Source: Pirellulales bacterium (GTDB taxonomy: Bacteria > Planctomycetota > Planctomycetia > Pirellulales > JAICIG01). Taken from it: a stretch of DNA of 55,302 bases. Below are positions 12,624 to 29,454 of this stretch, in pieces. The notes beneath the pieces are model-generated. The model saw only the letters and a list, made by a program, of their open reading frames with translations. It was not told where the DNA came from and ran no database searches. Every line of letters begins with the position of its first letter. Within the stretch, counting starts at the first letter, position 1. A program made the translations under genes and the position numbers. Location: assembly GCA_035533075.1 (NCBI GenBank), contig DATLUO010000267.1, positions 1 through 55,302 on the forward strand. Reading direction: 5' to 3'.

Positions 12624-12659
12624 GTGCCCAACGCCTTTCGGCATCAACGAACGAACGAC
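12624..12659 (-). CRISPR. Solitary repeat of the second (I-MYXAN-type) array
   Basis: These 36 bp match the 16411-16591 repeat with one difference (T to C at position 5 on the + strand, inside the presumed 3' handle). It stands alone: no second copy follows at spacer distance. Its right end is 4 bp from the degenerate terminal repeat of the type I-C-like array. It looks like the distal end of a type-B array joined to the distal end of the type-A array. Confidence 0.85.
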
Positions 12660-12663
12660 TCGC

Positions 12664-12915
12664 CCACCAGCCGACGAGTCCGTCGTGACGCGGCGGAAAC
12701 GATGCCGCCGCCGCATCGTGGTCGAATCTCTCGATGTTTCAATCCGCCGCCGCGCCATGACGCGGCGGAAACAGAGCTATCTGGACGACCAGCGTACTAT
12801 TCTTACGTTTCAATCCGCCGCCGCGCCGTGACGCGGCGGAAACGCCCGGTTCAAATTCCCGCTGTCCGCATGCCCGGAGTTTCAATCCGCCGCCGCGCCG
12901 TGACGCGGCGGAAAC
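12664..12915 (-). CRISPR. Short CRISPR array of the type I-C-like locus
   Basis: Three full 37-bp repeats lie at 12736-12772, 12807-12843 and 12879-12915, with spacers 12701-12735, 12773-12806 (34 nt) and 12844-12878 (35 nt). A decayed terminal repeat ends at 12700 and keeps only its first 17 nt in the leftward sense. Read leftward, the repeat begins GTTTCCGCCGCG, forms a perfect 8-bp stem (CCGCCGCG/CGCGGCGG, loop TCACGG) and ends with the classical ATTGAAAC handle. Transcription is therefore leftward, away from cas2, with the decayed repeat at the distal end as usual. The repeat at 12736 differs from the others by one base. Confidence 0.95.
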
Positions 12916-13099
12916 TCTGCCCCACTAACTCTCGACGTCGCAACGGCGGACGCGCGCGTTTCCGCGAACCACCCACCCGACCGCCATTACGACGCCATCC
13001 AAATACCATCCATACATGATAAACGCTTTGTCGCCAACAGGTTGTGCTGCCCGCGAACATCCCGGCGTTCCCGCACGCGCTGCCGGTTCGCGGAAGCCC

Positions 13100-15284: not shown

Positions 15285-15968
15285 TCATCCCTCATCTTTC
15301 GTTCCGATCGCAAACAGCCCGCGCTGGTATCGGGCCGCGCGCACTCGCTCGCCGAGCATTTCGGGCATGCACAACTCGTGGAGCGAGCAGCCGCGGCAGC
15401 GGGGCTTGTGTACGGGCGGGGGCGTTTCGCCGGAAGCAAACAGCTCGTGCAGCCGCCGCGCGGCGGCTTCGGTGCGGGCACGCAGGCGCTCGTCGAACAG
15501 GATCTCGCGTCGCCGTCGCGACTTGACGTGAAAAACCGCGCCGGCCGGCACGCTCACGCCCAGCATCTCTTCCAGGCACAGCGCCTGGGCGCAGAGCTGC
15601 ACGTCGTCGTTATCCCAGCGCCGCCGCTTGCCGCGCTTGTATTCGACCGGGTACGGTACTCCCTCTCCCTCCGGGAGAGGGCTGGGGTGAGGGGGGCGTG
15701 AATCGGCCGCCGCGCGAAACTCGACGAGATCGGCGATGCCGACCAGCCGCAGTCGTTCGCTGCGGACCCACAGTCCGCGGATGACGCGCCCGCGGCCGCC
15801 GAGTTCTTCCTCCGACGGGCCGGCATGCACTTTCTTGTGGGCGGTCGTTCCTTCCAGCGTGAAGCGGTTTTCGACCCAAACCTGTTCCACGCGGTGCATC
15901 GCGCACCGCCGCTCGCAGAACAGCAGGTCGTTCAGGGCCAGGATCGGCTGATAGTCGTCTTGGTCCAC
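15285..15968 (-). CDS. cas4: Cas4 nuclease (type I-C-like)
   Basis: A RecB-like iron-sulphur exonuclease that trims prespacers for Cas1-Cas2. Visible features are the Cys of LLFCERRC, the His of HKKVHAG, the Asp of GIADLVEF, the PVEYKRGK catalytic E-x-K, and the C-terminal CRGCSLHELC cluster. The 227-residue protein starts with GTG at 15968. An in-frame PLPEGEG palindrome (15661-15693) has been inserted between the nuclease Asp and the E-x-K motif, adding about 13 residues (SRPPHPSPLPEGEG). It is 8 bp downstream of a truncated frame, as in an operon. Confidence 0.95.
   Translation of the reverse strand: MDQDDYQPILALNDLLFCERRCAMHRVEQVWVENRFTLEGTTAHKKVHAGPSEEELGGRGRVIRGLWVRSERLRLVGIADLVEFRAAADSRPPHPSPLPEGEGVPYPVEYKRGKRRRWDNDDVQLCAQALCLEEMLGVSVPAGAVFHVKSRRRREILFDERLRARTEAAARRLHELFASGETPPPVHKPRCRGCSLHELCMPEMLGERVRAARYQRGLFAIGTKDEG
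15661..15693. repeat. PLPEGEG palindromic element inside cas4
   Basis: A 33-bp element beginning CCCTCTCCCTCCGGGAGAGG (arms CCCTCTCCC/GGGAGAGGG). It matches 18295-18327 inside the cas4-cas1 fusion at 32 of 33 bases. In both genes it is read in the frame that gives PLPEGEG. Confidence 0.9.
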
Positions 15969-16410: not shown

Positions 16411-16591
16411 GTGCTCAACGCCTTTCGGCATCAACGAACGAACGACGAGTCGGTATTGATCGCATTTTGGTACAAGATCGCGTGCTCAACGCCTTTCGGC
16501 ATCAACGAACGAACGACTTCGCCCCAGCCCTCCGGCGCGTCGGCCGAAAGATGTTGTGCTCAACGCCTTTCGGCATCAACGAACGAACGAC
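16411..16591 (-). CRISPR. CRISPR array of the I-MYXAN-type locus
   Basis: Three identical 36-bp repeats at 16411-16446, 16482-16517 and 16556-16591 enclose spacers of 35 nt (16447-16481) and 38 nt (16518-16555). Read leftward, the repeat starts GTCGTTCGTTCGTTG and forms a hairpin GATGCC-GAAA-GGCGTT followed by the 3' end GAGCAC, giving an 8-nt handle TTGAGCAC. Leftward transcription agrees with position (directly downstream of cas2) and with the pseudo-repeat pair at 25775-25882. The conserved block to the left is the one argument for the opposite sense. Confidence 0.93.
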
Positions 16592-17237: not shown

Positions 17238-18965
17238 TTAGCGGACCCGCATCCGAGCAAACAGCCCCGGACATCCGCTCCACTCTTTTTCCAACAGCCG
17301 CAGCTCCAACTCGATCATCCGCGCGTATGTCAGCGCTTGCCCGGTGTGGGGATGCTTGTGAGATTCTTCAAGTCGCTCCTCGAAGAGCTTGATCGCGGTC
17401 TTTCGCCCCTCGTCCGAGAGCCAGACCTGGCCGGGCGAAATCGCGAAGTCGCGGTCCACGCTCCATTGCAGCCGGTTGACGCTGCCGATCAGCGGTATCT
17501 CCCAGAGGATCGTGCGGAACAGTTCCATCACGTCGAGCACCAGCGGCGGCGCCGCGGTCCGCGGCCGATGATAGAAGCTCAGCGCCGGCTCCAGCCCCAC
17601 CGCCACGGCCGAGCGATGCACCGCCGTTTGCAGCATGGCATAGCCAAAACTCAGCAGCGCGTTGAAGCGGTCGCGCGGCGGATGCTTCGATCTGCCCGCC
17701 GGCCGCATTTCCGCCGGAACCTGCGGCGACAGCAGCGAGGGAAGGGCCGCAAAGTAGGCTTTGGCCGCCATCCCCAGCAGCGATTCTTCAGAGCCGGCCG
17801 TGTTGACCTTGCGCAGCGACTCGCGAATGCGCTCCAAATGCGGCAGGCAGGCGCCGCGCACCGGCCCGTCGCCCCGCGATGCTCGCAGCAGGTAGCGAAG
17901 CTGCGTTTCGACCTTGGCGTGGACCAGCCGCCGGGCAAGACGCAGCCGCGTGGCGCCGTCGGTCAGGCCGGCATATTGGCGAATGCGCTGCTGCACTCGG
18001 CCGGGCTGCCCGGTGGTGCCGGCGGCGAACTTCCCGCCCATCGTCATCCACTGCACGGCCACGCCGCGGCTGGCGCAGAGATGGATCGCCTGCGTGGTCA
18101 CCTGCCCGAAACCGTGAATCACCAAGGCGTCGATCTCCTCGATCGGCACGCGCTGCGTCACCTTTTCACGGGCTTCGTTCTCGCTGGTCACGACGAGCGT
18201 TTCGCCGCTACGGCCGACGCGGGCCTTGGGTGACACCACGTGCAGCGTCTGCCGCTCGCGGTTCGACGGGAACAGCGTCGGAACATGCCTCGCTCCCTCT
18301 CCCTCCGGGAGAGGGCCGGGGTGAGGGCGGTTCGCGTCTGGTTCGGCCTCCTCATCGCCGAGGTGCTCGTGAGCCGCCAGCCTTTCCTCTTCGGGCAGAC
18401 AGACCGGCGCCAACGAGCAGCGGACGCAGAGGTTTTCATTTTCGGCGACCGGCGGCCGGGCAACCGTCTGACGCAGCTCGCGGGCACGCTCAATCGCGCG
18501 GCGCAGATCGTCCTTGGCCGCGTCGTCGATTTCGATGAAGGCGGTCACATTGTCGGCATGGTAGCGGACCCGCGCCTGCGTCACCGTTTCGCCGAGCGCT
18601 TCTTCCAAGAGCACGGCGTAGGCGACGGCCTGAATGCGATCGCTGGGCCAGGCCAGCACTTCCTTGGCCGGTCCGCGATGGCAGCGGCCGCGTTTATGTT
18701 CGTAGGCCACCCAGCGGCCATCACGTCGGCGGACGGCATCGACCTTGCCCACCAGGCCCCACGTTTCGCTCGCGACCTCCAAGCTGCGGTGTTCCGGCGC
18801 TTCGTCGTCGAGCGGCACGACGTCATCGTGCAGCCGCCGGCCGGCGTAGACCAGGGCGGTTGGATTTTGGATACCCTCGACCTCGGTGAAATAGAAAAGT
18901 CGCTCGCAATAGAGCAGATCGTGCAGCGAAATGACGCGTAGCGGCGCCTCAAGATCGACCGACAT
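17238..18965 (-). CDS. cas4-cas1: Cas4-Cas1 fusion (I-MYXAN type)
   Basis: A 575-residue fusion of prespacer-trimming nuclease and integrase. Cas4 part (about 1-205): LLYCERLFYF, VGKVDAVRR, AYEHKRG (E-x-K) and NLCVRCSLAPVC (iron-sulphur cysteines). Cas1 part (about 245-575): SEESLLGMAAKAYFAAL, SFYHRPRTAAPP and LVLDVMELFRT give the Glu, His and acidic metal ligands. The linker carries the PLPEGEG element (18295-18327). The ATG at 18965 overlaps the cas5 stop as TAATG, so the open stretch back to 19043 is not used. The fusion is typical of Myxococcus dev-type loci. Confidence 0.96.
   Translation of the reverse strand: MSVDLEAPLRVISLHDLLYCERLFYFTEVEGIQNPTALVYAGRRLHDDVVPLDDEAPEHRSLEVASETWGLVGKVDAVRRRDGRWVAYEHKRGRCHRGPAKEVLAWPSDRIQAVAYAVLLEEALGETVTQARVRYHADNVTAFIEIDDAAKDDLRRAIERARELRQTVARPPVAENENLCVRCSLAPVCLPEEERLAAHEHLGDEEAEPDANRPHPGPLPEGEGARHVPTLFPSNRERQTLHVVSPKARVGRSGETLVVTSENEAREKVTQRVPIEEIDALVIHGFGQVTTQAIHLCASRGVAVQWMTMGGKFAAGTTGQPGRVQQRIRQYAGLTDGATRLRLARRLVHAKVETQLRYLLRASRGDGPVRGACLPHLERIRESLRKVNTAGSEESLLGMAAKAYFAALPSLLSPQVPAEMRPAGRSKHPPRDRFNALLSFGYAMLQTAVHRSAVAVGLEPALSFYHRPRTAAPPLVLDVMELFRTILWEIPLIGSVNRLQWSVDRDFAISPGQVWLSDEGRKTAIKLFEERLEESHKHPHTGQALTYARMIELELRLLEKEWSGCPGLFARMRVR
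18295..18327. repeat. PLPEGEG palindromic element inside cas4-cas1
   Basis: The second copy of the 33-bp palindrome found in the other cas4, here read in frame as PHPGPLPEGEG in the linker between the Cas4 and Cas1 domains. Confidence 0.9.
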
Positions 18966-19777
18966 TAGTTCTTTCCACGACGGCTGGGCTTCCGTGCGGG
19001 TGTGGCCGGAGTTTCCATCGCTGGCGGCGTAATAGTCGTCCATGCTAATTGCGGCGGCTCACCAATGCAAGCTTCTGACTGCGGGGCATACAATGCCGAA
19101 GCCGTGCGTGACAAGTCGGCGCGATCGATCAGCGTGGTAAGCCGAGTCGTGCGGCCGCGCGGGCCAGAACCCGGATCCGCGATGACACGCTCGTACCATC
19201 GCACTGGGCCAGGTTCGGGCAGCGTTTCAATGCGGTCAATGAGGAAGGCATTATCACCGATGAATGGAACGCCATAGCGTCGTTCAGAAAAATCACCGGC
19301 GATCCCGCGAACCACGCGGTGCGTCAGATCGTCGTCGGCGCGTAAGGCGATCACCGCGCGAAACCCAGAAAGATACTCGCGACGGACGGGCGCGATGTTG
19401 TATTTATTCCCCTTTGTAGATTCAGCCCTCGCAGCGCCAGACGTGCCGACCGGATAGTTGTGCAACTGCTGAAAGACGGTCTGCACGCGCGGAAAGAGGA
19501 CGTCCACGGCGATAGGCACTTTCGTGCGACCTCGCAACATGTATTCAGGCACGCCAACCGCGATTTCCATCGCCGGCAACCCTGGTCGCGTGAGACTTGC
19601 TGGCACTTTGCCGCCGTGGCCCGGCTCGTCCTCGCGCAAACGCGAGTCGATTCCCGCCAAGTTCAAAACGAGGCCATAGGCGGCCGATGGCGTAATAAAG
19701 GTCGCTGTCGGCCGGTACCAGCCCGCGGTGAACGTGCGGAAGACCGCGAATGGCGCCTCGACGTACAGGACAAGCAT
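18965..19777 (-). CDS. cas5: Cas5 (DevS-like)
   Basis: A Cascade subunit that caps the 5' handle of the crRNA. The 270-residue protein opens MLVLYVEAPFAVFRTFTAGW followed by YRPTATFITPSAAYGLVLNLAG, the DevS/Cas5 signature of Myxococcus-type loci. RREYLSGFRAVIALR and RRYGVPFIGDNAFLIDRIE are further family-like stretches. The C-terminus (ETPATPARKPSRRGKN) is a basic, probably disordered tail. The ATG at 19777 overlaps the cas7 stop (TGATG). M. xanthus DevS is known to act in autoregulation of its operon. Confidence 0.93.
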   Translation of the reverse strand: MLVLYVEAPFAVFRTFTAGWYRPTATFITPSAAYGLVLNLAGIDSRLREDEPGHGGKVPASLTRPGLPAMEIAVGVPEYMLRGRTKVPIAVDVLFPRVQTVFQQLHNYPVGTSGAARAESTKGNKYNIAPVRREYLSGFRAVIALRADDDLTHRVVRGIAGDFSERRYGVPFIGDNAFLIDRIETLPEPGPVRWYERVIADPGSGPRGRTTRLTTLIDRADLSRTASALYAPQSEACIGEPPQLAWTTITPPAMETPATPARKPSRRGKN

Positions 19778-20787
19778 CACGCTCCTCCCAAGAATCGGTC
19801 GGCTACCGTTGCCAGCAAGCGGCGCGGATCGCGGTCGACGGTTACTCCCCGTTCAGTTAAGCGCTCGATGTGCCCCTTTACTGCAGCGCCGTCTTCTTCT
19901 GCTTGATTTTCTGGCCGCTGCTTTTTCGCTTGCTCTTTTTTCATCTGTTCGTCAACGGTCTCCATGTCCTTAATGACCTTTCCGCCGATGAAGAATTCGT
20001 TGCCAGGATAATCGGGCGGATCGCGGAGGATGCCATCAATCACCTCGGGAAACTCTCCCTTCGAATTGAATCCGTAAGTCTGATAGCCGGCGACGAGTTG
20101 TTTCGTGAGCCGCACGACGATGCTGGCGGGGGCCATCTCGAAGTAGCTTCGCGCGTGATTCCCGGCAACGCCGTTCAGTTCGCCGATTGCTTGAAGGAGG
20201 TTGCGAGTCCAGTCCGACTTCGATTTGCAGTCCAGGAGATTGAGCGCGAAAGGATACTGGAACGCCGAGACCACGGTCTCACGGTGGAGCAATGCAGACG
20301 TCGCCGCGTTTTTGTAAGCGCTTCCTTCTGCTGCGAGCGGTGATTGCGTGAACACGGCGTTATGCCGGTAGGGCTCGAGCGCCTTGGCGAGATTCATGCG
20401 GAGGACCGAATCCCGTTTGAACGTGAAATCCTCAGCGGCTTTCTTGCCTCGGCTTTCTTCGATCTCCTTTAGGTATTTCTTGCGGTCGGCACTGCCTGCC
20501 GCAACAAGGTAGCCAAAGAAAAAATCGTCGGCGTACTTGCCGGGGTCGGGTAGGTCAGCGAATTTGACCGCGAGTTGCTCCTCGTCGTGCAAGCGTTGGC
20601 GATTGCACGGTAGCCCATACTTGGCAAGCGTTTCGCGAAGCGCATTCCGCATGCTCTCCGGCGAAAAGATAGGGTAGTCAAAGCGGCCATCGGTCACCTT
20701 TTGGATGACAGTCCGGTTAAGTTCCGATTCCCCGCGGTAATTGGCCGAAGGGGCCGGGTATGTTAGTACGGTGGCGAATAAATTCAT
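19777..20787 (-). CDS. cas7: Cas7 (DevR-like backbone subunit)
   Basis: Forms the crRNA-coating backbone of Cascade; its thumb flips out every sixth guide base (family knowledge). The 336 residues include MNLFATVLTYPAPSANYRGE, YPIFSPESMRNALRETLAKY, FQYPFALNLLDCKSKSDWTR, and GVAGNHARSYFEMAPASIVV, the last being characteristic of DevR/Cst2-type Cas7. A lysine/glutamate-rich stretch lies near residues 285-305 (EQMKKEQAKKQRPENQAEED). The ATG at 20787 overlaps the cas8 stop (ATGA). Confidence 0.94.
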   Translation of the reverse strand: MNLFATVLTYPAPSANYRGESELNRTVIQKVTDGRFDYPIFSPESMRNALRETLAKYGLPCNRQRLHDEEQLAVKFADLPDPGKYADDFFFGYLVAAGSADRKKYLKEIEESRGKKAAEDFTFKRDSVLRMNLAKALEPYRHNAVFTQSPLAAEGSAYKNAATSALLHRETVVSAFQYPFALNLLDCKSKSDWTRNLLQAIGELNGVAGNHARSYFEMAPASIVVRLTKQLVAGYQTYGFNSKGEFPEVIDGILRDPPDYPGNEFFIGGKVIKDMETVDEQMKKEQAKKQRPENQAEEDGAAVKGHIERLTERGVTVDRDPRRLLATVADRFLGGA

Positions 20788-22616
20788 TGCTTAGCCTCAC
20801 GAGGTTGCAGGGGAGTCCAAGAATTGGCGGAGAGCGCCATGAGAGTTAGAGTTTTGACTTTGTCGGTACCGTTGAACAGCGCCGCCGCGATTCGCTCGAA
20901 CAGCTTACCGCCCATGTAGTGCCCAACGCGGAAGAATGTGCCGCTGAAGTGCTCGACGAACGCTTGGTCGTGCCTGGAACGAAACTCCAAAAACAGCCGC
21001 TCGGCGAGTTTCTGACGCGCGTCTACCGCATCGGCGAGGTTCTTCGCTTCCACAGGGTTTGCAGGAGACCGTCGCTCCTTGCGAAATTTGTGGAAGTCAA
21101 AGCCGATGTCTCTCTTCAAACGCTCATCAAGATAGCGGCGGGTAAACCGGTTTATTGCCGAAGCGAGTACATCATCATCGCTTGGCGGATCAGTCACGTC
21201 GTTTTCAGTCGGCATAGCTTGGATCACCTCCAGGATCTTTTTCCGGGCGTCTACCCAGAACCACGAAAATGTTGGGGAACTTTTGGTCGGGATGAAAAAA
21301 GGGTGCGGCCATTCGTCGAAAACATCAGCGAAAGGGTCAAACCATGGCCGATCATCGAGCAAAGCGGCCAGCAAGGCGCGACGAAAGAACGGATTCGCAA
21401 AACGAGGCTTTCCATCCGGCCGCCCGGCAATCTCGCAGTAGTCTTCGGCGAGGTGTGGGCGTGGCTCGACTCTACCCGTCGCAAGGAACTTAACGTTGTT
21501 GCCTTCCTTCGCGACGTGGAAGTAATCAACAGCGCTTATAGCCGGTCCAACTTCGCTTTCCACGATGTGCGGCGGAATTAGGCGTGCAAGATGCTCGATG
21601 AATGACAATCCGCCCTCAGCGGGAAGGTCAACGATGCTCTCTGTCGGCCTCATTCCCGCGAGCTTTGTGCTCAGGCCCGCGAGTAATCGCGGGTAGTCGC
21701 GAAGAAACTCTCGCAAGTCGGCGACTTCTGGCAACGCAACCGCAAAATGGGGCGATCGGTCTTTTTTTCCACGCCTGCCAAGGTAGGTGCCGCCATCGCG
21801 ATCGACAAATCGCGGAACGAATATAAGGATACTTAGAGGCCAAAAGTGAAGGAGGAGATTCTGCTCGATCTGGCCAATGAGGGGGATCGCCTCCGCGTTT
21901 CGCTCCATTGCGCCGAGCAGCAGTGCCCCTGAAAGCTTGCCGACCGCGTGGGTTCCTCGTGCATTGGCGGCTGCATACTTCAGCAAGTCGTCCCACGAGC
22001 TCCCGTCACCCCTTCCGGACTCGGCCGCTTCAGCTTCATCGTCGGTGTCGCCATCGGCGACTGCAATGACGTCGGCCAGTGCATGTTTTGCGGCAGCGCG
22101 CTTGATAAACGGCGCCTTCTTCTTGCTGTCACGAATAACCTGCCAGATCAAGTCGCGCCAGAGCCTTACCCAATCCGCGCTGGGAAGGTAATGGCGAAGA
22201 GTAGCGAGCGATGGCGTGAGCTCAAGATAGACGTACCCCTCTACGGTCGTCTGATTCCCTTTTTTATCCGTCTTGATGAACGCCGCGCGTCGTAGCGGAG
22301 GAACCAGCCGCTTTTGAGCGCCTTTCCCTTTCGTAAACGGCTTTTCACGCGGCGGTCCTTCGATGAGTTCGGCGTCGTAAATGTCATCAAACAATGCAGC
22401 AGTCGTTTCACGCGTGAACTCGACATGCACGATGGTTCGAGGGCATTGGTCGTCCCAACGATAGCTGGGCGATGGCTTCCCTCGATTCCGAAGAGACTCA
22501 ATCTCCAAGAGTAACCCAGCGAGACCGGCCTTGTGCTGCGCCGTCGGCAAGCTCATCAAATCGTAGGTGACGGTTACGGCAGTTGGTTTTGCTGCGGTCT
22601 TGGTCGACTTTGCCAT
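20784..22616 (-). CDS. cas8: Cas8 large subunit (Cmx8/DevT-like)
   Basis: The large subunit of the MYXAN-type Cascade, expected to read the PAM. The 610-residue protein begins MAKSTKTAAKPTAVTVTYDL followed by MSLPTAQHKAGLAGLLLEIE, a beginning I associate with Cmx8/DevT. Other parts (WVRLWRDLIWQVIRDSKKKA, LLLHFWPLSILIFVPRFVDR, VRVGHYMG-like GTFFRVGHYMGGKLF) carry no motif that I can assign. The acidic stretch GDTDDEAEAAESGRGDGSS near 200 is probably a flexible loop. The ATG at 22616 overlaps the cas3 stop (TGATG). Identification rests on both sequence and operon position. Confidence 0.88.
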   Translation of the reverse strand: MAKSTKTAAKPTAVTVTYDLMSLPTAQHKAGLAGLLLEIESLRNRGKPSPSYRWDDQCPRTIVHVEFTRETTAALFDDIYDAELIEGPPREKPFTKGKGAQKRLVPPLRRAAFIKTDKKGNQTTVEGYVYLELTPSLATLRHYLPSADWVRLWRDLIWQVIRDSKKKAPFIKRAAAKHALADVIAVADGDTDDEAEAAESGRGDGSSWDDLLKYAAANARGTHAVGKLSGALLLGAMERNAEAIPLIGQIEQNLLLHFWPLSILIFVPRFVDRDGGTYLGRRGKKDRSPHFAVALPEVADLREFLRDYPRLLAGLSTKLAGMRPTESIVDLPAEGGLSFIEHLARLIPPHIVESEVGPAISAVDYFHVAKEGNNVKFLATGRVEPRPHLAEDYCEIAGRPDGKPRFANPFFRRALLAALLDDRPWFDPFADVFDEWPHPFFIPTKSSPTFSWFWVDARKKILEVIQAMPTENDVTDPPSDDDVLASAINRFTRRYLDERLKRDIGFDFHKFRKERRSPANPVEAKNLADAVDARQKLAERLFLEFRSRHDQAFVEHFSGTFFRVGHYMGGKLFERIAAALFNGTDKVKTLTLMALSANSWTPLQPREAKQ

Positions 22617-25036
22617 CAGCACTGCCCCCATTGATCGAGCGTCGAACCGTAGAAGCCGATGGCCGGATGGTAGTGCCCAGCCTCGGCGATCCCTAAGTAC
22701 GGCGGCAACTGCTTGTGTTCAGGATGCATTTCGTTATCGCGGCAACGGGCCAGCCGTATCGGAACTGGCAAGATGAAGCCCGGTTTGTCCTTCGCCCTTG
22801 CGGAAAGGTAATCATGCACGTCGTCCGGCAGCACACACTGGCGGTTGTGCTCCTCAGAATCGCGGAAATCTTCGTCGCCAGCAACGGCGAACGGGCCGCT
22901 TTCGAGAAACATGCTCAGTTTGTCGCCACCCCAAGGTGGACTTGGCACCTTACTAAGGGCCTCCTCGAGTGCCGCTTGCGACAACTCCGTGTCGGCGACC
23001 AGGGCAAGGAATTCTTCCAAGCCGGTCAGGTCTTCGCGGGAGTACGGGTTTTGGTCCGCCGGCTTGTAGACGATCACTTCACCGGATTTGGACAGCGGTC
23101 GTGCGTCCCGTTCCCGGTTCGCGCGGCCCATTCTCTGGATCAACGATGTGACTGGACACTCCTCCGTGATGAGCAGGTCGACGTCCAAATCGAGGCTCAT
23201 TTCGCAAACCTGCGTCGTAATGCCGATGCCGGCCCCTCCCGTCGCCTTCAAGTTGTCCACGACGTTGTTGTGCCGCTTCACGCGGTCCGAAAGCTTAAAG
23301 CGGCTGTGGTAGCAGTAGACCGGTGTCCCGTCTGCCATCGTCAGGTGCGTATTCTTCGACGCCGGGTCGAAGTTGGCGGCAAAACGCTCGACAATCTCGT
23401 GACAGCGAGCCACAGTGTTCACGACCCAAAGAACGCGACGGCCGCTGCGGAGCGCTTCGCGGGCGCGTTCTTCGGCTGCGTTGCGTGACGCGGCGCGCGT
23501 CAACCGGTAGCGCGGCATCCCCGCGATCGTTTCCAGCTCGCCACGCTTTTCGGCGAACACCGTCAGCCCGCAACCTCCTGCCTCTTGGCTCTTTTCCAAT
23601 TGGTCGCGGCGATCGGGCGGCAGCGTCGCGGTCATGCACAAGACTGGGACGTTGAAGTTGTTCAAGAACGCCTTGAGCGCGGAAAACATCTTCTGGTCAA
23701 AGCTATGCACTTCGTCGATGACGATGATCGAATCCGCAAGCACCGGGAGCATGCACACCGGCCCGTAGCCGTATTGGAGGAAGGCCAGAAATTGGTCGAC
23801 GGTCGCCGAGAACGCCCGCTTTTCCCAAAAGCCAAGAGCATACAACCGGCGGTCGGCCTCATAGCTCAGCCCGTGGCGCGAATCCTGCTCGTTGTCGAAC
23901 ATGTCCCTGAGGTCGAATTCCGCCGTGCCGTGCATCAACGCAGCATCGGCTTCGGGCGCCCAGGAAACGTAATCCTTGAACCCTTCCTTGGCCGTCGCTC
24001 GCGTCGGGTAGAGAAACAGGACGTGGCCCGCAGGATTCTTTGCGGCCTGTGCGGCAATCCAGCGCCACGCGGCTAGCGTCTTGCCGCTACCGCAGGGAGC
24101 CAAGAGCAGCGCGCGGTCCGGCAAATCGTCGCACGCGACTTGGAAATCGTTCCACTCAAACTTGCCCTTGCCGTGCTTCCTGAATTGAGCGTTCAGGTCG
24201 TCAACGCGCCGATTGATGATCTCGGTCCGAACGCGCTCTCCGTCCCATAGTATGCCTGCATCGAACTGTTGGCGAATCCACCCCGGTATTGTCTTGTCGA
24301 CCCGCGCTAGCCCTGAACCGGCGGCATCCGCGGCGATCAGCCCGCCGCGGACCGCCAAGAGCATTCGCTTGCGTGTCAGGTTCGCATCAAGCTCATTGCG
24401 GAAGGGGTTGAAAACCTCCTTTATCACGTGCTTCCGCATCTCCCGGATGTTTGCCGGCGGCTTCTCGAACGACCAAGCCTCTGGAATCTCGCGTAAATTG
24501 ACCTGCCCCAATCCGAGTAAGTCACCCGTCGCGCCGGCCAACTCCTCAAACTGGTCCGTGCGGTGTAGCAAGCCAATCCTCGCCCTATCGTTCATGCGCC
24601 GCGCAAACCCAAACTCCCTGTGCGGATCGTACGCCGCTTTAAGATGGTGCGTCATCACGGCCGAGAGAACGAGTGGCCGGTCGAGCGCCACATTGCCCGC
24701 CAGCCATTCCCAGACGACGGGTCGTGACATGAGGAGGGCGCTCAGGTGCTCGTGCCGAATTCCTTGGGAGCCGCGCTTGCCTCGCACGTCGTCTTGAAAA
24801 CCGTCGTTGGCTTTCCCCCAGTCGTGCAACGCGCACGAAGCGAGAAGATTGATGTAGAATGTCGGCCACGCTTCGTCGGGCAGTTTGAAGAACCGAAGCC
24901 AACAGTGGCCCAGCCTCGTTGGTCCATCTGCACTGCCGAACAGCGCCACCGCCGCGTCGATTACGTCGCGCGTGTGTCGCACCAAGGACTTCTCAACACC
25001 GTTGCGCGGCGATTTCGCCAAAAGTTTGTCAGCCAT
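22616..25036 (-). CDS. cas3: Cas3 nuclease-helicase
   Basis: The 806-residue Cas3 degrades DNA displaced by Cascade. An N-terminal HD nuclease domain shows VRHTRDVIDAA and SCALHDWGKANDGFQ (HD pair). The superfamily-2 helicase follows: LLAPCGSGKTLAAWRW (Walker A), IIVIDEVHSFD (DEVH box), CMTATLPP (motif III) and SLIQRMGRANRERDARPLSK (motif VI). All key residues are present, so interference looks functional. The ATG at 25036 overlaps the cas6 stop by 8 bp. A longer frame to 25081 lies inside cas6. Confidence 0.96.
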   Translation of the reverse strand: MADKLLAKSPRNGVEKSLVRHTRDVIDAAVALFGSADGPTRLGHCWLRFFKLPDEAWPTFYINLLASCALHDWGKANDGFQDDVRGKRGSQGIRHEHLSALLMSRPVVWEWLAGNVALDRPLVLSAVMTHHLKAAYDPHREFGFARRMNDRARIGLLHRTDQFEELAGATGDLLGLGQVNLREIPEAWSFEKPPANIREMRKHVIKEVFNPFRNELDANLTRKRMLLAVRGGLIAADAAGSGLARVDKTIPGWIRQQFDAGILWDGERVRTEIINRRVDDLNAQFRKHGKGKFEWNDFQVACDDLPDRALLLAPCGSGKTLAAWRWIAAQAAKNPAGHVLFLYPTRATAKEGFKDYVSWAPEADAALMHGTAEFDLRDMFDNEQDSRHGLSYEADRRLYALGFWEKRAFSATVDQFLAFLQYGYGPVCMLPVLADSIIVIDEVHSFDQKMFSALKAFLNNFNVPVLCMTATLPPDRRDQLEKSQEAGGCGLTVFAEKRGELETIAGMPRYRLTRAASRNAAEERAREALRSGRRVLWVVNTVARCHEIVERFAANFDPASKNTHLTMADGTPVYCYHSRFKLSDRVKRHNNVVDNLKATGGAGIGITTQVCEMSLDLDVDLLITEECPVTSLIQRMGRANRERDARPLSKSGEVIVYKPADQNPYSREDLTGLEEFLALVADTELSQAALEEALSKVPSPPWGGDKLSMFLESGPFAVAGDEDFRDSEEHNRQCVLPDDVHDYLSARAKDKPGFILPVPIRLARCRDNEMHPEHKQLPPYLGIAEAGHYHPAIGFYGSTLDQWGQC

Positions 25037-25661
25037 CGTTCGCTTCCTGAGCGCGAGGGTTGAACCGCACGAAAATGCCACAGCCCATGTGACGGCGACC
25101 GCCGAGGCCGCTCTCCTGAAGCGAGATCGACTCGTGTGCGGTCAACTCAGAGGCGAGCACTTCGTAGCCTACGACCTCCTTGTCCTTAACGCGCAACGTG
25201 CGACGTTTACCCACGGTGAGCTGGGCCTCGGGCGAGACATTCAGAGCATCGAGTTGACGCCGAGCCGCAGCGAGGAATTCGGTCTCATCGGGCGGGTGAG
25301 GCGCCGCTCGATCACCGGAAACCTTGATCGTAACAAGGCGACTGCGAAGCGCCGTGGCAGCGCTAAGCGCATAAACCTGCGGCACGCCGACGCGCACCGG
25401 CTGCCGACCGATGTTGAGCTGTTTGCCGGCCAGCGGCAGAAGATCGGCGATTCGCTCGGGCGCGACCCGTATCGTCAGCCGACTGAAGTCGCAGATCTGC
25501 ATTCGCCGATCGCCGATCAACCGCCCGCGAATCGGATGAACACCGATGCCGTTTGGTTCATGCATTGACGACAGCAACCGCGAAACCGCGGCGTAGAGGT
25601 GATAGCCGTGATCGGCGGGAATGTCGCAAGTGCCGGTGAGAATAAAGGAAAGGTCGATCAT
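25029..25661 (-). CDS. cas6: Cas6 crRNA-processing endonuclease (Cmx6-like)
   Basis: First gene of the operon; cuts the precursor at the repeat hairpin. The 210 residues include FILTGTCDIPADHGYHLYAA, IGVHPIRGRLIG, the VGVPQVYAL and LVTIKVSGD strands, and a C-terminal glycine-rich LQESGLGGRRHMGCGIFVRF, the Cas6 RNA-binding loop. The N-terminal His of ADHGYHLYAAVSRL is a candidate catalytic residue. The pattern matches the Cmx6 family of Myxococcus-type loci. AGAGG lies about 8 nt before the ATG at 25661. The upstream 220 bp hold the putative promoter and pseudo-array. Confidence 0.92.
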   Translation of the reverse strand: MIDLSFILTGTCDIPADHGYHLYAAVSRLLSSMHEPNGIGVHPIRGRLIGDRRMQICDFSRLTIRVAPERIADLLPLAGKQLNIGRQPVRVGVPQVYALSAATALRSRLVTIKVSGDRAAPHPPDETEFLAAARRQLDALNVSPEAQLTVGKRRTLRVKDKEVVGYEVLASELTAHESISLQESGLGGRRHMGCGIFVRFNPRAQEANDG

Positions 25662-25710
25662 CGATGGAACCTCTTGCTAACCGGGGCGCGAAAGGGTAGA
25701 TTGTGTGATG

Positions 25711-25727
25711 TTGTTATTTTGCTTGGT
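25711..25727 (+). promoter_or_regulatory. Predicted target of the pseudo-spacer in the cas6 upstream region
   Basis: TTGTTATTTTGCTTGGT here matches the first 17 nt of the 35-nt pseudo-spacer at 25812-25828 (TTGTTCTTTTGGTTGGT) except at positions 6 and 12. Similarity stops from position 18. The base triplet on the PAM side is ATG. It lies 50 bp upstream of the cas6 ATG and directly downstream of a candidate promoter. Binding of a guided Cascade here would obstruct cas transcription (inference). Confidence 0.75.
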
Positions 25728-25767
25728 ACGACTCCCGCATCGTACTGTTTGACACGATCGTTCGCAA
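25726..25767 (-). promoter_or_regulatory. Candidate cas operon promoter with inverted repeat
   Basis: Leftward reading gives TTGCGA (25762-25767), a 17-bp spacer and TACGAT (25739-25744), each 4 of 6 to the sigma70 consensus. An inverted repeat GTACGA/TCGTAC (25726-25731, 25740-25745) overlaps the -10. On the other strand a perfect TTGACA at 25749-25754 could be the -35 of a rightward promoter for the pseudo-array, though its -10 is weak. Confidence 0.4.
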
Positions 25768-25774
25768 CTGGTTC

Positions 25775-25882
25775 GCATGATCTCCTCGGATGCCGGAAAG
25801 GCGTTGAGCACTTGTTCTTTTGGTTGGTGACTGACAACCGTTGAGCGTGGTCTGTTCGTCGATGCCGCACGGCGCTAGAAGA
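25775..25882 (+). ncRNA. Degenerate mini-CRISPR (pseudo-repeat, 35-nt pseudo-spacer, pseudo-repeat), CreR-like guide RNA candidate
   Basis: Read rightward, the first pseudo-repeat (25775-25811) keeps the last 22 nt of the 16411-16591 repeat with only one inserted G, including the hairpin GATGCC-GGAAA-GGCGTT and the perfect handle TTGAGCAC. Exactly 35 nt follow (25812-25846), the same length as the first spacer of the real array. The second pseudo-repeat (25847-25882) matches 22 of its first 28 nt, including GATGCC-GCAC-GGC, then decays. Each copy is preserved on the side facing the pseudo-spacer. Its first 17 nt match 25711-25727 except at positions 6 and 12. Confidence 0.82.
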
Positions 25883-25962: not shown

Positions 25963-26199
25963 ATGGAGATTCCCGGTCGAGTGCAGAACGGCGTCGTGGT
26001 TTTGGAAGGTGCCCCCACGCTGCCGGAGGGGGCGCACGTAACCGTTTGTTTTCACGAATCGATCGCGTCACGGCCGGAAACGAAGAAGCAGCGGATCGAA
26101 GTGCCGCTCGTTCGAACCGGTCAACCCGGCACCGTGAAGCTGACCGCGCAGCGGATCGCGGAGATTCTCGACGAAGACGATGTTTCTCCCCGACGTTAA
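25963..26199 (+). CDS. Antitoxin-like protein paired with the PIN gene
   Basis: A 78-residue product from the ATG at 25963: MEIPGRVQNGVVVLEGAPTL followed by PEGAHVTVCF, the short beta-rich beginning of DUF104/AbrB-type antitoxins, then a C-terminal TAQRIAEILDEDDVSPRR. An earlier TTG at 25933 is less likely. It overlaps the following PIN toxin gene by 20 bp. It starts about 80 bp right of the pseudo-array on the same strand and could be co-transcribed with it. Confidence 0.7.
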   Translation: MEIPGRVQNGVVVLEGAPTLPEGAHVTVCFHESIASRPETKKQRIEVPLVRTGQPGTVKLTAQRIAEILDEDDVSPRR

Positions 26200-26602
26200 T
26201 CTTTGGCTGGCGCTGACGTTCGATTCTCACGTCCACCATCCCGACGCGAAAAACTGGTTCGACGGCTTGTCCGACGACATTTGCGTGTTCTGCCGGATGA
26301 CGCAGCAAGGATTCCTGCGATTGTCCACCAACCCAAGAGCCTTCGGGCAGCACGCCCTGACGCTCCGCCAAGCGTGGCATGAATACGACGCCTTTCAAAG
26401 CGACCCGCGGGTCTCGTACGCCGACGAGCCGGCGAATCTCGAAACGCATTGGCGCAATTGGACTCGGCAGCAGTCGTTCTCCCCACACGTCTGGAACGAC
26501 GCCTATCTGGCGGCCTTCGCCCTGTCGGCAAGTCTCCAGATGGTCACTTTCGATCAGGCGTTTGCACAGTATCATGGGGTGAAGTGCGTCTTTCTGCCGT
26601 AA
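26180..26602 (+). CDS. PIN-domain toxin (VapC-like)
   Basis: A 140-residue PIN nuclease: MFLPDVNLWLALTFDSHVHH with the first Asp in PDVN, then ICVFCRMTQQGFLRLSTN, VWNDAYLAAFALSASLQMVT with the central Asp, and FDQAFAQY with the last Asp. The VNLWLA/HPxA layout is that of a distinct VapC subfamily. The ATG at 26180 lies inside the antitoxin, giving translational coupling. Unlike the PIN toxin at 14539-14958, it stands beside rather than inside a cas operon. Confidence 0.88.
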   Translation: MFLPDVNLWLALTFDSHVHHPDAKNWFDGLSDDICVFCRMTQQGFLRLSTNPRAFGQHALTLRQAWHEYDAFQSDPRVSYADEPANLETHWRNWTRQQSFSPHVWNDAYLAAFALSASLQMVTFDQAFAQYHGVKCVFLP

Positions 26603-28700: not shown

Positions 28701-28813
28701 GGTAGACGGTAGACGGCAGACGGTAGACAGCAGACGGTAGACAGCAGACGGTAGACAGCAGACGGTAGACGGCAGACGGTAGACAGCAGACGGTAGACAG
28801 CAAACGGTAGACG
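28701..28813. repeat. Heptamer minisatellite, G(T/C)AGAC(G/A), about 16 units
   Basis: About sixteen consecutive 7-bp units alternate between GTAGACG, GCAGACG, GTAGACA and GCAGACG. The order follows a 14-bp higher pattern (GTAGACAGCAGACG) for most of the length. It lies in the same gene-free region; 28620-28660 also carries GTGGCCAGTGGTCAGTGGCC-type short repeats. I see no credible gene in 28880-29454. Confidence 0.9.
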
Positions 28814-29454
28814 CAGGAGTCGAATCGACGATTCGCGACGCCCTCTCCCTCATCGCTTATCCCTCTTCGGAACTACGAGATGATGAAATCCCTCGGGTTT
28901 TTCTCGTTTGTGCAAATTTGCACGAACGAGCGGCGCTCGGTAGCAAACGCCCTCCGTGGCGTTCCGCGTAGGGGGGGTCGGCGCCAAGCTCGCACGATCA
29001 CGGAAATCGCGGCGCGCCGGGAGAGGGCGTTGCGTACCGGGCCGCCAGAGGGTTCCGCGCTTGTACAACTCGGCCTCGATGCTTCCTCGCATCGCCGCAA
29101 AGCGCAGGCCCAAACCAGCTTAGACGGCCCAGGCGGCGCGCGTGATTTTTGTTTTTCACAAGCCGCGACACTTGTATTTTTCACAAGTGTTTTTAGCTCC
29201 TCCCCCCTTGCTCGCCAATGCTTGGGGCGCCGCCGGCAGAAAAACGCAATCCGCTTCGCTATCTTGCCGATAGTTACCAGTGCCCGCATCCGGCACTGCC
29301 GTGCCGACCCCGCGCGACCTAGGGACCCGCGGAAGACAGCTTCGCCCGACAGGTGGCTCTCGATTGCGAGCGCCCAAAGACGGTCGGCGAAACTGCCGGG
29401 ACCTTCGTCGGTCGCGCCGCAACGCAATCTTTGGCCCAGGAGATTCCCCGTAAC

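Follow-up and report, generated by a model that had tools for sequence, protein, structure and literature searches.

CreR guides, reported for CRISPR-Cas types I-B, I-E and V-A, are described as a brake, lifted when crRNAs from the array compete for Cascade or when anti-CRISPRs block Cascade (PMC13131331, PMC12737573). The element that we describe here, found in a 55,302-nucleotide stretch of DNA from a Pirellulales bacterium (hereafter, the window), resembles CreR in its degenerate ectopic repeats, its one crRNA-like guide, its partial complementarity to a cas promoter and its predicted autorepression (PMC13131331, PMC12737573). It differs from CreR in its host, which is a type I-MYXAN (MxI-B) system, in that the first targeted gene is mostly a sigma-like regulator, and in that an ATG PAM and a six-base mismatch rule are visible across 17 natural guide/target pairs. 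We found no description of a CreR-like guide in this dev-type subtype, although overlap with the primary CreR survey is not excluded.

Other described systems share parts of this design. CreA of the type VIII toxin-antitoxin system CreTA also has two degenerate repeats, of which the first is the more diverged, and relies on repression by Cascade through a partial match, as is inferred here; its target, however, drives a toxin RNA, whereas the present one drives cas6 or a sigma-like gene (PMC9458426). In Streptococcus pyogenes, the natural single guide tracr-L has a short match by which a CRISPR effector represses the operon that encodes it, as is proposed here, but this is a class 2 system with Cas9 and tracrRNA and without Cascade (PMC8730458). 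Finally, DevTRS of Myxococcus xanthus, with homologous Cas5, Cas7 and Cas8, exerts negative feedback on its own dev operon. This feedback has no known guide and reportedly requires the activity of neither Cas3 nor Cas6; its mechanism is unknown, and non-crRNA guiding has not been ruled out (PMC8616872).

A degenerate mini-array diverges from an I-MYXAN cas operon

The cas operon of the window runs on the minus strand and starts with cas6 (Cmx6; 25029–25661; TIGR02807, E = 1.7e-51), followed by cas3 (22616–25081; TIGR01587, E = 2.4e-46), cas8 (Cmx8; 20784–22631; TIGR04413, E = 5e-104), cas7 of the DevR family (19777–20787; TIGR02585, E = 2.3e-15, which is under the curated cut-off), cas5 (DevS; 18965–19780; TIGR02586, E = 4e-44) and a cas4-cas1 fusion (17238–19043; TIGR03983, E = 1.1e-127). 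A normal CRISPR array with three repeats (GTCGTTCGTTCGTTGATGCCGAAAGGCGTTGAGCAC) lies on the same strand at 16411–16591. With Cmx6, Cmx8, DevR/Cas7, DevS/Cas5, Cas3, the Cas4-Cas1 fusion and a repeat ending in TTGAGCAC, the locus qualifies as type I-MYXAN (MxI-B, dev-type), and its gene order and repeat end agree with the published ones (PMC11237760). A second CRISPR system seems to be present: a lone I-MYXAN repeat (97%, handle TTGGGCAC) adjoins an array built from another repeat (GTTTCAATCCGCCGCCGCGCCGTGACGCGGCGGAAAC) at 12624–12917, and a second cas4 lies at 15285–15968. A 14-bp tandem repeat (AGACGGTAGACGGC and variants) occupies 28704–28826.

Upstream of cas6, on the plus strand and divergent from the operon, lies a mini-array of two pseudo-repeats. 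The first, psiR1 (25776–25811), has a decayed 5′ half but retains GATGCCG(G)AAAGGCGTTGAGCAC of the array repeat with a loop that is longer by one base; its hairpin folds at −7.7 kcal/mol and is followed by an intact 5′ handle, TTGAGCAC, at 25804–25811. The second, psiR2 (25847–25882), keeps the 5′ part and the hairpin, lacks the handle and is identical to the array repeat at 23 of 36 positions. Between them lies a pseudo-spacer, the putative guide, of exactly 35 nt (25812–25846). The initial annotation had described just this arrangement, with a hairpin and perfect handle in the upstream copy and a 5′ part and hairpin in the downstream one, and all the letters and coordinates that it gave are correct base by base. 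The hairpin/handle pattern recurs in 17 other units. Degenerate repeats outside the array are one of the features that define CreR, and the window has them, with recognition by Cas6 inferred from the hairpin and handle of psiR1 and the hairpin of psiR2. As a whole, the transcript of the 110-nt unit is predicted to fold no better than shuffled sequences, a point against the self-repression reading. On the same strand, 82 bp past psiR2, lies a vapBC-like toxin-antitoxin pair (25964–26602), which could share the transcript of the pseudo-array.

The guide has a single ATG-flanked match in the genome

As initially annotated, the pseudo-spacer is identical over its initial 17 nt to 25711–25727 on the plus (guide-identical) strand save at positions 6 and 12; positions 1–5, 7–11 and 13–17 match, and beyond them similarity drops to background. 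The site is upstream of cas6, at 50 bp from its start codon, and a full-length protospacer would span 25711–25745. Directly 5′ of it, at 25708–25710 on the same strand, there is an ATG, a feature absent from the initial annotation. In the 8,541,942-base genome, ATG followed by the 15 matched bases occurs without mismatch at one site only, the target itself; the next-best sites have three mismatches, and one of these is the guide. The window guide is low-complexity and T-rich, which lends some support to the notion that a 17-mer near a decayed repeat is similar to the cas6 upstream region by chance; however, even for the window alone, the chance of a zero-mismatch ATG site within 1 kb is on the order of 1e-7 (18 fixed bases, both strands).

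CreR guides match the promoter of the cognate cas operon next to a proper PAM, and do so partially. The window guide meets both requirements: the promoter is a predicted one, and pairing ends after about 17 of 35 nt, from which non-cleavage is inferred. The candidate cas6 promoter, TTGCGA-N17-TACGAT (25739–25767, minus strand), was read from the sequence, agrees with the consensus at 8 of 12 positions and has its −10 element inside the full-length protospacer; a promoter scanner applied to the region upstream of cas6 in the window returned no site at 9/12 or better. This weak consensus match counts against the reading of the element as self-repressing.

Relatives carry different guides, each fitting its own upstream region

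Cmx6 (TIGR02807) loci were gathered from genome collections, with up to 20 kb around each. A single profile search of genome contigs yielded planctomycetes and one Bacillota MAG only, and no Myxococcus dev loci; a separate search in the phylum of the Bacillota MAG gave no additional Cmx6. We scanned the −1600 to +60 regions of 54 cas6 copies blindly, using repeat features only: a handle core (GGCGTTGAGCAC-like) and stem with at most two mismatches, then a perfect hairpin core 28–61 nt later. The scan detected 18 mini-arrays in 16 genomes, which belong to eight families of planctomycetes, except for one genome from elsewhere; the element is present at about a third of the cas6 loci, and about two thirds are without it by these criteria, a low share that speaks against the self-repression reading. 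All but one of the 18 units diverge from cas6, the exception (L013) being located inside the cas6 leader. One locus (L065) has two units, with no target found for the second. Weaker repeat-like candidates from the same scan had no ATG-flanked match above 9/15.

Guides were scored against their own upstream regions at 15 positions (1–5, 7–11 and 13–17), and the PAM was not used in the ranking. A match of at least 13/15 was found for 12 of the 18 guides. The corresponding control figures are 1 of 304 for tests of guides against foreign regions, 4 of 1080 for shuffled guides and 7 of 374 for real spacers taken from the arrays of these loci. Seven elements reach 14 or 15, a level attained by none of the 304 cross-locus tests, 1080 shuffles and 374 real spacers (control maximum 13). 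At the best sites of the 12 guides the preceding trinucleotide is ATG in 11 cases and GTG in one (L084), the frequency of ATG before the best sites of controls being ~1.1–1.4%. Another guide, L046b, matches at 12/15 with ATG. For L049, L059, L064 and L047b we rely on a shorter ATG-flanked seed (9–12 nt) and on targets chosen using the PAM, and these four are therefore weaker support: in the first three (seeds of 10–12 nt) the ATG targets are not the clear best matches, and the L047b match, only 9 nt with ATG, could be due to chance. Taken over the resulting 17 guide/target pairs, ATG precedes 16 targets. ATG is also the top predicted PAM of the myxobacterial B-Type CRISPRs (MxI-B, dev operon; grouped with similar III-B repeats), and MxI-B plasmid interference, with repeats ending in TTGAGCAC, used ATG-flanked targets (PMC11237760); the PAM read off the planctomycete targets agrees with it.

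The guides have, on average, 29% of their bases in common between loci (65% at most), and since they share so few, the guide/target pairs are mostly independent cases of covariation. L084 and L086 come from two species of a single genus; their guides differ at 9 of the 15 scored positions, and the targets follow at 9 of 9; as the global alignment of these two loci is mostly unreliable outside the pseudo-repeats, this was read directly from guide and target. Covariation at positions 1–5, 7–11 and 13–17 in related I-MYXAN loci had been set beforehand as a check on the self-repression proposal, and the proposal passed it strongly: the guides differ, and each fits its own upstream region. With seven elements at a level that no control reaches, and with the PAM and the periodicity described below both independent of the score, chance similarity is refuted for the family of elements, and we give it practically no weight.

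Mismatches fall on every sixth position

Type I Cascade flips out every sixth base of the guide/target duplex. Across the 17 pairs, the numbers of matches are 17, 17, 16, 17 and 16 at positions 1–5, 2 at position 6, 17, 16, 16, 15 and 15 at positions 7–11, 2 at position 12, 12, 12, 11, 12 and 11 at positions 13–17 and 2 at position 18, after which they are near background. Up to position 18, the sixth positions are thus matched in 6 of 51 cells, and all others in 220 of 255 (Fisher p = 2e-25). The skipping of positions 6 and 12 in our score does not create this periodicity, because the 13 pairs that also rank top when all 17 positions are scored show the same pattern (p = 1e-21). Judged from these alignments, the mismatches at 6, 12 and 18 are the six-base footprint of type I Cascade. 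The unpaired target position 6 is A in 12 of the 17 pairs. Mismatches at the sixth positions are slightly more frequent than neutrally expected (45/51, p about 0.016).

The same pattern bears on whether the pseudo-spacer is a relic, that is, a genuine spacer once acquired from the cas promoter that has lost its function and is decaying along with its repeats. Degenerate repeats and a match spanning half of the spacer would be expected of such a relic. Decay should, however, strike positions at random, yet in unrelated loci the losses are at 6, 12, 18 and past 17–18; furthermore, guides and targets change together, and this covariation argues strongly against a relic. We regard it as highly improbable.

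Targets lead into cas6 or into a sigma-like gene

The targets precede the first gene of the operon by 16–111 bp (for L065, the gene start was taken at the first internal ATG). The initial annotation had named the cas6 promoter as the target of the guide. This holds for the window, where cas6 is the first gene behind the target, as it is in L084, L086 and L092; it does not hold for most relatives. In twelve other elements the first gene encodes a protein of 144–186 aa, or is replaced by two smaller ORFs, and cas6 comes second; most of these products have a helix-turn-helix at the C-terminus. A match to sigma-70 region 4 was obtained for L063 (E = 5.8e-9) and L046b (E = 2e-5), several copies being without a significant Pfam match. 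Either the window has lost the sigma-like gene or it never had one. In L049, L046, L064 and L085 this gene is divided between two ORFs that adjoin or overlap each other (77–85 aa, then 93–107 aa with the HTH), reminiscent of split sigma factors. AlphaFold, run without an alignment on one sigma-like protein, gave a poor model (mean pLDDT 49.5). Promoter-like sequence is enriched at the targets, with 8 of 17 scoring at least 9 as compared to 3% of random windows. A near-consensus TTGACA-17-TACAAT stops 8 bp short of the L084 protospacer, and the PAM of L086 is overlapped by a TATAAT.

Could the element be an addiction module of the CreTA/CrePA kind, in which the guide silences a toxin, perhaps the vapBC beside psiR2, and a cell that loses Cascade is poisoned? 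Its anatomy is the same as that of CreA, with degenerate repeats of which psiR1 is the more decayed (PMC9458426), a VapC toxin is encoded next door, and the protospacer (25711–25745) lies just upstream of any promoter of the pseudo-array or vapBC. Nevertheless, in 16 of 16 divergent loci the target is placed, within the distances given above, before cas6 or before a sigma-like gene leading into cas6, vapBC is absent from the other loci read, and no small toxin-like ORF between target and cas6 is common to the loci. CreA/CreTA membership would call for a toxin promoter as the target, whereas the first gene behind the target is cas6 or a sigma-like gene. The addiction reading fails because no toxin stands behind any target, the vapBC of the window adjoining the site rather than lying behind it, and we consider it quite improbable.

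A different possibility is that in most relatives the primary target is an activator of the cas operon, the sigma-70-region-4-like protein, besides or instead of the cas genes themselves. The twelve of 17 elements that face a promoter with the sigma-like ORF or split pair first, and the two region 4 matches, speak for such two-tier control. On the other hand, in most such loci no more than tens of bases separate the end of the sigma-like gene from cas6, or the two genes overlap, so that repression would reach cas6 regardless; moreover, the protein has not been shown to act as an activator, and Pfam support is missing for several copies. We hold two-tier control to be possible but, on this evidence, still somewhat unlikely. 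It refines self-repression for the relatives rather than opposing it, and the window presents the simpler, direct form.

A probable CreR-like guide for a dev-type Cascade

From the anatomy, the PAM, the six-base pairing rule, the promoter-proximal site and the guide-target covariation across relatives, all of them observed, we infer with considerable confidence that the mini-array is a CreR-like self-repressing guide for the neighbouring I-MYXAN Cascade; transcription, processing, Cascade binding and repression are predictions from sequence. The region 25776–25882 would be transcribed on the plus strand, away from cas6, as a two-repeat mini-CRISPR, and Cas6 would cut both degenerate hairpins to release one crRNA-like guide, which with its handle TTGAGCAC would load into the dev-type (MxI-B) Cascade. 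For the cultured carrier Planctomycetales bacterium 10988 (L012/L063), the guide RNA is expected to start with TTGAGCAA before ATGTTCGTAAG and to be about 60–70 nt long. Through ~17 matched bases, the loaded Cascade would attach to the ATG-flanked site that precedes cas6 by 50 bp, each sixth base being flipped out and unpaired. As pairing stops at ~17 nt, the complex is expected to hold the DNA without cutting it, and to block the start of transcription of the cas operon, which would thus be limited by its own product. Since the guides of unrelated relatives differ, yet match in like manner the promoter of the locus that carries them, dev-type systems with own-promoter guides very probably limit themselves with their own machinery.

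If so, the dev-type subtype would join the systems that are self-regulated by a crRNA-like guide. The 17 natural pairs display the six-base rule of Cascade and the ATG PAM without any experiment, and may offer engineers naturally evolved examples of type I guides that, as inferred here, do not cut. For the feedback of DevTRS on the dev operon of M. xanthus they suggest a concrete, testable mechanism; simple transfer to that operon is disfavoured, though, because the DevTRS feedback is reported to be independent of Cas6 activity. It therefore remains speculative, and in our estimate rather unlikely, that the dev-type class as a whole is governed by a built-in guide, with the DevTRS feedback acting through such a guide and the planctomycete control through a dedicated, sometimes split, sigma-like operon switch. 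Were there such a guide-controlled switch, cas expression would be sensitive to guide competition and to anti-CRISPRs.

Variation among the loci

In 11 of 17 elements psiR2 reads GGCGAT in place of GGCGTT, that is, the first base of the handle is changed, which may mean a common origin or a silenced downstream product. Three loci of one genus, g10 (L073, L074 and L075; genomes G181, G589 and G500), have a short I-MYXAN cas locus, and the 20 kb read contain no normal array; ~3.85–4.05 kb downstream of the cas6 start, they carry three degenerate repeats whose two spacers are conserved from species to species and look like guides retained for a non-immune job. These guides have no target within 20 kb and no clear target in trans. 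The guide-less loci L053, L056, L057, L068, L071, L079 and L081 mostly have, judged by eye and without a family test, a WYL-like regulator ORF immediately before cas6, as if the guide and this ORF were two modes of control that substitute for each other. Finally, L046, L047 and L085 contain two cas6 genes within a few kb, and each time it is the second copy that is preceded by the guide unit.
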